NCBI GenBank assembly: GCA_916048095.2
Contig: OU696585.1
Coordinates: 1,255,371-1,319,370 of the forward strand
Length of the DNA: 64,000 bases
Source: Sacculina carcini
Taxonomy: Eukaryota > Arthropoda > Thecostraca > Sacculinidae
Direction: 5' to 3'
Positions within the stretch are counted from its first letter, which is position 1. Each line of letters opens with the position of its first letter. The position numbers and the translations under genes are program-made. The notes under the pieces are model-generated. The model was given only the letters and a program-made list of their open reading frames with translations. It was not told the DNA's origin and did not search any database. Shown piece by piece: positions 5,989-17,140 of the stretch.

Positions 5989-8900
5989 ATGAGCAGTTTA
6001 CCCCCCTCGGACGAGAGTTCTGCGGTCCTTTCAGCGGATTCGTCTCTGGAGAATGGTGCTATGGCAGCTGATGTCGATGCCGATCCGATCAGTCATAGAC
6101 GGCACAAAATCAGGTCGGACTCCGAGCGCTCACAGTGTTCATGCGATACGGTGCTTTCTGACTCTGGTTCACCGTTCTCAAGTAGCGAGGATCTTTCCGC
6201 TTCGCCGGATGATGATCAGGAACGTACATTAGCGCCCGACGGCTTGGCTCCGGCCTCTGATCGCAGTTTATTTTCGGCCGAAGAAGAGCGCGAGCTGATA
6301 GGCTGGGCGATGGACAGCTGCGACGCGGGACTGCTGGTTGGTCCGCGCCAGTTACGACGAGAGATCGCCGCAATTGTGTCGTCGGAACAGCGTGCTTCTT
6401 CCAGGTAGGCCAGCTGATGTCGCCTTAGTACTAACACTTTGCAATTTGTTGTCGTGATCAGAGTACACATGTAGTTTTGCGTGTACTCACTCGTGTGTGT
6501 GTGTGTGTGTGTTTTTATTATGCTCCACTGCAACGGCTGGCAGCGAGTGCAGCGTGGATCAATGGAACTCTGCGTTGCTGCAGCGCCATCATGACACATT
6601 GTCGCGTCTTCCCGTGTTCTTCACGCGCCACGTGCGCCCCTCTGCCTTGCAGACCGACAGTCTCCCGTCCTCTGCGTGTAGCGCGCCCATTGACAACGAC
6701 AATTTCCACGTGTGGCGTTCTGCTCTGTCGGGTCGAAACGCTGCGCGTATTGTAGCCGTTGCTCAGGTTTTTCGACAAACTCACACGCACACACACACAC
6801 ACACACACACACGCACACACACATTTTCACAGCGTAAAGGTATTTTGAGCATTATGTACGTCGTTTGATGTTGATTCTCAACATGGGCGTAGATTTGTGT
6901 CGAGGCTCGGGGGGATGACAGCCATAATGTATTAGTGTTCAAAGTTGGCTCATTTGACCAATTGCATTTTTAACCATTCTATGCCTAGTCAATTACAACA
7001 CACACACATACCTCAATGAAAACATACAACTGCATACACACACGCACTTTTCGTATATTTGTACTTTTTTTGCTATGCTGATTTTGATGACAATATACCC
7101 AATGAACTGAACTGAGCAGAATTCACGTGGGGTATAATTGCATATTCATACCCCCAGTCAATTTTTCGGCGGGTATATATACCCCCATACCCCCCCAGTA
7201 TCTACCTCCATGGATTTCAAGTATTTTCTCGTGTAATTGTCCACCCTTCCGGCTTGACACCGTATATTTTTATATCGGTTATTTAGTGATTTAGTGTAAT
7301 CATTATTAAAAGTAAATCGCATGGGTTTTCTTTTTTTCAATACGAGCTCGAGATAAGTTTAAAATATTTATATATTCAAATATATTTTTGTTGCAGTTAT
7401 CAATTATGAGTTGATAACTTTTAGTTAACTATTTATTTTTAGTTGCTGAGGTGTTTGTCGTGTTTGTCAGGCGTACATTCACATTGACACGGTGAGTAAG
7501 CGTGTGATTGGCGTGCGTTCGTGCGCCGCCACCGCCGCATCTGCGTCATCCACGCCGACTGCTGTCCACACTTGTCGACATTGCGGCGATAACGGCGCCC
7601 TGGCGACTAATGTGGCTCACGTGACGCACGTGCAGGCAGTGAGCGGCGATGGCGCGTGTTCGCGCGCCATGCTCGTCTACGGCGGCGACTGCGCCACATT
7701 TGTCGACGACCTTCTCAACGAGCAGCGCGCGCACACTATGTGCCGTCGCAGTGCAACTGGTGAATTCAATCAATATTTGATTACTCCTTCATCTTTATTA
7801 TAATCTTTAATATTATCTTTATTATTATTCTTTATTTTAGATCTACTCCTCCAGAGGAGCTCGCAGATCTTCTTATTCAAATAATAAACACATCATTTAA
7901 CAAATCATAACCTAAAAATAATTAATCTAACAATAACAGAACTAACATAATATGTATAAGAATACTTGAAAATATTGTTGTTAATATTTTGAATAACGAT
8001 ACGATAACGTAATTATGCTCTATAATCTCCTATAGAAATATCTCCTATAGAAAAATCTCCTCTGCCTGGTTTCGAACCACGGACCTCCCGCTTGTGAGGC
8101 GGGTGTGCTACCACTACACCACTACATTTGTTTTGTGTTCATATGCTTGTGTGTGTGTGTGTGTTCATGTGCTTGTGTGTGTGTGTGTGTGTGTGTGTGT
8201 GTGTGTGTGTGTGTGTGTGTGTGTGTGTGTGTGTGTGTGTGTGTGTGTGTGTGTGTGTGTGTGTGTGTGTGTGTGTGTGTGTGTGTGTGTGTGTGTGTGT
8301 GTGTGCTGCGCCTTAGAGACCTTCTAGGTGTAGGGCGCTTTATAAATATCTACCTAATGTAATGTAAGTGTGTGTGTGTGTGTGATGAACCCACTATGTC
8401 TCGTGCGACAGGCGTACTGGCTTCCTACGACATGTTGGCGTTTATGTTGCACTGTGTCGAGCCTCTGCTTCTGTCACGCGCCACCAGCACGTGCGATACT
8501 GCCCCAACTCCCATCTCTGCTGCTCGAGACCACGCCGGTAATAACACGACGGCCGGGCCTGCTGCTGGTGCTGGTGGTGGTGACACCGATAAGACATCCG
8601 ATAATAAGTGTGACAAAAACGGCGAACATGCACGAACCCACGCGACTCCTGGCGTGATCAACAACGACGATGACTCCACATCGGTCAGCCAACTCAACAA
8701 CGCCCCGGTTAAACACGGGAATGACGTAGGCGGCTGTGTAATTGTCGACGGAGATCGACACTGCGGCAGTTTGGCGCTGCGTCGATATTGCCGCGACGAA
8801 CAGCTGCAGCTGCTTGGTACGGCGGTGGCGGGCAGCTGCTGTCGAAGCCACCAGCTGCGCCGACGCGCTGTCAATCCAGCCGATACTGCAGCCGGGGCAC

Positions 8901-17140: not shown

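Follow-up and report, generated by a model that had tools for sequence, protein, structure and literature searches.

The window, by which we mean the whole stretch of 64,000 nucleotides analysed from contig OU696585.1 of Sacculina carcini, carries at positions 5989 to 17140 of the forward strand a gene model of ten exons. An earlier note, made from the letters alone, had read this model as a pogo-type DDE transposase fused to a THAP zinc finger in one host gene. Splicing of these exons from the window sequence gave, on translation, 1318 codons in phase and a stop, which reproduced the model of the note. The splice-site alternatives tried yield 24 in-phase combinations, of which this is one, and the exact starts of exons 5, 6, 7 and 10 may lie elsewhere.

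Exon 1 (5989-6404, aa 1-139) encodes an acidic, probably disordered N-terminus and the first part of a putative pogo-type helix-turn-helix (HTH), and exon 2 (6544-6766, aa 139-213) ends with the weak donor CAG/GTTTTT. Exon 3 (7471-7759, aa 214-310) contains the motif YIHID with D219 (7486-7488), followed by VTHVQAVSGDG. Exon 4 (8412-9039, aa 310-519) contains VIVDGD with D422 (8747-8749) and NPAD with D467 (8882-8884), and has a low-hydrophobicity insert near aa 350-400. In exon 5 (9369-10780, aa 519-990), the pogo-like part ends and a long region of low hydrophobicity follows up to the donor CAG/GTTTGT. Exon 6 (11693-11847, aa 990-1041; strong donor AAG/GTGAGT) and exon 7 (12207-12404, aa 1042-1107; donor CAG/GTTGGT) are both without an in-frame methionine. 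The first zinc pair of the THAP finger is encoded by exon 8 (13595-13696, aa 1108-1141), the second pair and the end of the finger by exon 9 (14483-14721, aa 1142-1221), and a leucine-rich, coiled-coil-like stretch before the stop by exon 10 (16846-17140, aa 1221-1318).

The coding potential was scored by codon usage, for which three conserved genes in the window that have Pfam matches served as the training set (PARG, an Alg9-like mannosyltransferase and a ribose-phosphate pyrophosphokinase). In 9 of the 10 exons the frame of the model outscored the other two forward frames, with exon 9 a near tie (0.65 vs 0.68). Exons 1 to 5 and 9 were clearly coding with 0.38 (exon 1) to 0.65 bits per codon. 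Low scores were obtained for exon 6 (−0.09), exon 7 (−0.03), exon 8 (0.08) and exon 10 (0.01), where stop-free intergenic stretches as a reference had their 95th percentile at −0.06 and their 99th at 0.09. One reverse-strand frame scored higher than the model frame in exons 6 (0.08), 7 (0.11) and 10. The donors were scored with a generic matrix against all GTs of the region. Eight of the nine ranked at or above the 94.6th percentile, the value of the exon 5 donor, with the exon 7 donor at the 96.1st; the exception was exon 2 at the 54.5th. Exon 5 itself comprises 471 codons, within an open frame that runs for 620 codons from stop to stop. The acceptors of exons 5, 7, 8, 9 and 10 are preceded by GT-rich tracts, often (GT)n microsatellites, instead of the expected pyrimidine tract, which is possibly a genome-wide habit.

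The THAP finger was tested with Pfam. Exons 8 and 9 joined gave a match to THAP (PF05485) of 31.9 bits (E 2.4e-7; cut-off 23.9), whereas exon 9 alone reached 21.1 bits and stayed under the cut-off. The splice between the two exons is supported because the score gains almost 11 bits across the intron. With the whole 1318-residue protein as the query no THAP row was returned from Pfam, probably because of its skewed composition, and phmmer searches with pieces of the model against the chains of the PDB found no THAP chain. The zinc ligands C1111-x4-C1116 and C1170-x2-H1173 are in place, as the note had described for its split finger, and the motifs YPLP, RRRW, HF and VVPH stand at the conserved positions; we take the conserved P, W and F and the AVP box to be hallmarks of the family. 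As judged by profile and ligands, this is a genuine THAP finger once exons 8 and 9 are joined, and it would be expected to bind zinc. In the model with one gene the finger is not N-terminal, its first ligand being residue 1111. The coiled coil that had been noticed at the end was likewise recovered as a coiled-coil-like heptad pattern. By a simple heptad count, used in place of a trained predictor, the 8 best windows of the whole protein lie in the last 35 residues (aa 1284-1318; 17033-17137).

Intron 7 (12405-13594) separates exons 1-7 from exons 8-10. A rather unlikely alternative is that there are two neighbouring genes, a pogo-derived one ending in exon 5 or 7 and a small THAP protein of about 211 residues, encoded by exons 8-10 with a short first exon that supplies the ATG. 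Exons 8-10 taken alone, with THAP finger, linker and coiled coil, are laid out like a typical THAP protein such as THAP1, and human THAP domains are N-terminal with the coiled coil downstream (PMC6402169). Reading through the donors leads to stops at 10813-10815 after exon 5 and at 12420-12422 after exon 7, and the two donors concerned are only moderate (0.8 and 1.5 bits). The polyadenylation signal AATAAA occurs within introns at 7883, 11233, 11653, 12700, 13778, 16489 and 16562, of which those at 11653 and 12700 would suit an earlier gene end. Past the stop codon of exon 10, AATAAA and ATTAAA are both absent as far as 20000, and up to 18600 only the variants AATACA and AATGAA were seen. The two exons that bridge the halves, 6 and 7, also have the lowest coding scores of the model and the higher-scoring reverse frame. 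All these points weigh against a single gene.

The separate THAP gene would, however, need a start. The in-frame TAG directly 5' of exon 8 contains the acceptor AG, and no ATG precedes the first cysteine. Within intron 7, 49 phase-0 candidates running from an ATG to a donor over 200 bases or less were found, the best with −0.2 bits, first exons farther upstream not having been searched for. Eight of the nine donors of the model, at 0.8 to 8.1 bits, are above this candidate; in six intergenic stretches of the length of intron 7, taken as a control, the best candidates ranged from −2.0 to 3.8 bits. Exons 6 and 7, lacking a methionine, suit internal exons only. One gene is favoured because a start codon is missing ahead of the first cysteine of exon 8, a good start exon was not found in intron 7, and exons 6 and 7 have no in-frame methionine. 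We therefore regard one gene as likelier than two, and all ten exons would then be carried by one transcript. Two short fragments resembling LINE tails (FPNR..WN.LP type, recognised by eye) were seen in the introns, at 9120-9360 (−) in intron 4 and at 12510-12800 (+) in intron 7. The latter supplies the AATAAA at 12700.

The pogo similarity of the first half was tested at several levels. Pfam was queried with the complete model and with three pieces of it, namely the HTH, the DDE part and the part from the second aspartate (D2) to the end, and gave no match to DDE_1 (PF03184), HTH_Tnp_Tc5 or CENP-B_N at E <= 10. Of the profiles with which the earlier note had wanted the translation compared, THAP thus matched, whereas HTH_Tnp_Tc5 and DDE_1 gave nothing at this threshold. 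The note had further held that the lack of a significant DDE_1 match for residues 214-545 would refute it, and taken literally this is the outcome, since no such match was found.

A pogo profile was then used, whose family consisted of 120 of 3726 matches, all 55-63% identical to one seed and belonging to one subfamily. The seed was a hand-typed consensus, which Pfam recognises as DDE_1 plus HTH_Tnp_Tc5. In a local hmmsearch with this family the model ranked among its own shuffles, and the piece aligned within aa 1-560 was the AFRSSGVCPW motif. When eight ungapped blocks were compared, three stood out, in the right order: the first HTH block (reached by 2 of 400 shuffles), VTHVQAVSGDG (VTHVQAVSGDGACSRAMLVY; by 5) and the last of the eight (by 14). 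The other blocks were not above the shuffles (second HTH 200, D1 380, WL 133, D2 143 and D3 342, each of 400). The summed score of the block chain, 15.3, was beaten in both sets of 200 shuffles (maxima 24.9 and 16.8).

A semi-global profile alignment that allows long inserts gave a score of 28.4 with a z of 4.4, which was reached by none of 3000 shuffles. At four other gap settings it was reached by none of 300 each. Eight control stretches had z values of −1.0 to 1.1, and reversed as well as later stretches of the protein −0.6 to −1.0. The signal was located in two segments, which were chosen after the first alignment had been seen. The HTH_Tnp_Tc5-like, putatively DNA-binding region (6265-6637, aa 93-170) is divided by intron 1 (6405-6543). 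For the HTH segment aa 60-215, no shuffle out of 1000 came up to the score at either gap setting (z 4.3-4.7); with the HTH profile run over aa 1-560, 1 and 0 of 1000 did. The second region is an apparently eroded second half of the DDE core, from D2 to AFRSSGVCPW (8729-9402, aa 416-530), divided by intron 4 (9040-9368). Again none of 1000 shuffles reached the score of the segment aa 400-560 at both settings (z 4.5-5.1), and the last block over aa 440-560 was reached by 0 and 2 of 1000. Both segments scored above all of 22 decoy stretches from real proteins, with a z of 4.06 against 2.72 for the HTH and 4.63 against 3.94 for the D2-to-end segment.

These results are to be set against a reading in which the N-terminal half does not derive from a transposase. 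It would be a fast-evolving, partly disordered host protein that resembles pogo by chance, joined to the THAP finger or not, so that this reading overlaps with the others. The failure of Pfam up to E 10, the local search that did no better than shuffles and the block chain that some shuffles beat are what it would predict. Further points weigh in the same direction. A Gumbel fit to the 3000 shuffles gave a p of only 0.0046, and the identity in the alignment was not above that of shuffles (0.278 vs 0.305). With the whole DDE profile, 15 and 3 of 1000 shuffles equalled the score over aa 200-560, and 13 and 2 of 1000 did so over aa 1-560; the half around D219, the first aspartate (D1; aa 180-420), gave no signal, as 392 and 298 of 1000 shuffles reached its score. 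The best decoy for the D2-to-end segment was a stretch of the real protein PARG, which leaves a narrow margin. Three Tigger-type elements of the same genome, taken as positive controls from 12 fetched loci, reached z values of 8.0-8.9 with the D2 segment, far above the 4.63 of the query; on the HTH profile the same elements had only 0.9-1.8.

With phmmer against 5.8 billion proteins, of which those of 0.55-1.75 times the length of the model counted as candidates, aa 96-545 yielded 7993 candidates with none at E <= 1 and aa 1108-1230 yielded 300 with none at E <= 10; a homologue with the same layout was not found in these searches, which counts against the reading favoured here. Searches of the PDB chains with three pieces gave chance matches only, no relative was present among 29 stretches from viral contigs, and the NCBIfam search returned nothing informative. 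When exon 4 was aligned with 29 of the 120 pogo proteins, the wrong DG was apparently placed on the catalytic column. Against a chance resemblance stand the semi-global alignment that no shuffle equalled, the two separate segments in the right order with none of 1000 shuffles each and above every decoy, and the absence of signal when the protein's sequence was reversed or its later parts were used. The similarity is of twilight level, and a pogo origin of the N-terminal part is in our view likely, if well short of certain; a resemblance by chance we consider unlikely. Of the pogo-type transposase that had been proposed, the HTH and the D2-to-end segments are thus upheld by profile alignment, whereas the D219 half is without signal and no part has a Pfam match.

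The same data bear on two weaker explanations. The weak coding scores of exons 6, 7, 8 and 10 and the poor donor of exon 2 would fit a pseudogene, or open stretches that line up by chance, but the ten exons join without a stop, exon 5 occupies its long open frame, and in the THAP finger the zinc ligands as well as the P, W, F and P at conserved positions are intact across an intron. We regard this as very unlikely.

A transposase that is still catalytic was also considered, in which the DDD triad 219, 422 and 467, guided by HTH and THAP finger, would serve programmed DNA breakage. D219, D422 and D467 are present in YIHID, VIVDGD and NPAD as had been claimed, the three are ordered as in transposases, and the D2-D3 spacing of 45 fits the DD29-56D range of pogo (PMC7386202). 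D422 and D467 are in register with the pogo profile, but this also holds for 78 of 400 shuffles, and the retained aspartates are no evidence alone because shuffles fill these columns so often. D219 is out of register, with the alignment putting an alanine at the D1 column. The motifs have drifted from the family consensus, from DE[TS] to DTV, from DGH to DGD and from QPLD to NPAD, so that the glutamate after D1 and the histidine after DG are lost. A large insert lies between D1 and D2. The gene is also single copy, and no terminal inverted repeats were seen around it in the self-comparison of the window, the sole look for them, which included no dedicated search for short ones. The catalytic triad in transposase order is weakened. 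Remaining catalysis is unlikely because D219 lies in a stretch without pogo similarity and the motif residues have drifted, and the DNA-breaking enzyme was rejected for the missing profile signal in the D219 half as very improbable.

The copy number was determined with tblastn of the model against its own genome, a 264.4 Mb assembly in 43 contigs with the window on contig 20. At E <= 1, 10 matches were obtained, all at this locus. The gene is therefore single copy in the assembly, and the possibility that it is one of many copies was rejected. Since it has many introns and a single copy, it is not a live element; the note had drawn this from the introns. Of the features by which a domesticated gene is judged, a single copy and introns are present. 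The exons overlap no repeat found by the self-comparison of the window.

The same genome is rich in the two kinds of sequence. At least 151 matches to DDE_1 were found, of which 12 were inspected and all appeared Tigger-like by eye, a name that we presume for these elements, and at least 150 matches to HTH_Tnp_Tc5. THAP gave at least 40 matches, some of them in open frames that we take to be P-element-like. Both sources were thus at hand for a fusion. A second THAP-DDE_1 pair was not seen among the matches listed (40 THAP by 150 of the at least 151 DDE_1), the nearest being 37.8 kb apart. P-element-like THAP open frames of this genome measure 199-258 aa and its pogo frames reach 657 aa, which suggests recent activity of both transposon groups.

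Comparable proteins are known for each part. CENPB, JRK, TIGD and POGK are pogo-derived host genes, among which CENPB has acquired a dimerisation domain at its C-terminus and POGK a KRAB box (PMC7386202), but their DDE core is far less eroded than the present one. POGZ, with about 1200-1410 residues, combines HTH_Tnp_Tc5 and DDE_1 with added zinc fingers (PMC7386202). Its fingers are near the N-terminus and non-THAP and its DDE_1 is recognisable, whereas here a THAP finger is C-terminal and DDE_1 goes undetected. For none of the 12 vertebrate pogo-derived genes does the available text of PMC7386202 state a THAP finger, and both mentions of THAP in it concern THAP9. On the THAP side, THAP1 and THAP11 have a C2CH finger followed by a coiled coil (PMC6402169), but at the N-terminus. 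THAP9, which derives from the P element, and proteins that join THAP to DDE_Tnp_4 or Harbinger also have THAP and a transposase-derived part in one chain (PMC10027918, PMC13228809); their transposase part, however, is not pogo (DDE_1). In a sea cucumber set the THAP finger leads in all proteins but one, where it is C-terminal (PMC13228809). A THAP finger together with a pogo transposase in one protein is not described in the available parts of PMC7386202, PMC10027918, PMC13228809, PMC6402169 and PMC10799480. These belong to the open-access literature, with subscription papers and protein-architecture databases outside this scope, and absence in print is not established by them. If exons 1-10 are one gene, it would be a variant of the chimaeric host genes derived from pogo, and its partner domain is one that the available text does not list for the 12 vertebrate cases.

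Taken together, we give about an even chance to the reading of the locus as a single-copy host gene, in which a long-domesticated pogo-superfamily transposase that has lost most of its catalytic core is spliced to a C-terminal THAP finger and a coiled coil. The encoded protein would most likely be a DNA-binding regulator of chromatin or transcription. Its N-terminal HTH would grip one kind of DNA site and the THAP finger a second kind, while the coiled coil would join the chains to a dimer or oligomer. The long middle of low hydrophobicity (about aa 550-1100) could act as a flexible tether or as a platform for partners and bridge the two sites. The eroded DDE core would be a scaffold or a dimer surface, not an enzyme. 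Binding of partners and silencing may be among the activities of such a protein. In this it would resemble its nearest working models, CENP-B and POGZ for the first half and THAP1/THAP11 for the second.

More tentatively, the gene might represent an undescribed domesticated family, in which a pogo remnant and a THAP finger from two unrelated transposon lineages are united in one host protein able to bridge genomic sites of two kinds, such as the copies of either transposon family with which this genome is still filled. Pogo transposases have been domesticated many times, alone or with a KRAB box, zinc fingers or a dimerisation domain, and THAP fingers repeatedly as well. If the reading is true, one regulator would unite two transposon DNA-binding systems, relatives of both elements being abundant in its genome, and the gene would be a test case for hosts that build transposon silencers out of transposons.

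The introns and the surroundings of the gene contain further elements. By self-comparison of the window, a repeat in intron 2 (6880-7213, +) was found to have a copy of opposite orientation in intron 9 (15417-15765). The intron 2 copy, the one that was searched, is dispersed in the genome with 40 scored copies among 3465 candidates, and the pair was rejected as terminal repeats of the gene. An apparently intact non-LTR retrotransposon (1765-5511, +) lies immediately upstream of exon 1, with an open frame of 1248 aa that contains endonuclease and reverse transcriptase; its tail appeared RNase H-like by eye. Eight Rfam matches to tRNA were obtained in the window, at 8064-8122 in intron 3 and at 31837, 35038, 38575, 41828, 42265, 44405 and 47734. 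Over some 70 bases, several of them match the intron 3 copy at 85-94%, and the eight appear to belong to a tRNA-derived SINE family rather than to be tRNA genes. Farther downstream (29310-34724, +), long open frames encode PARG (poly(ADP-ribose) glycohydrolase) and, after it on that strand, the Alg9-like mannosyltransferase.

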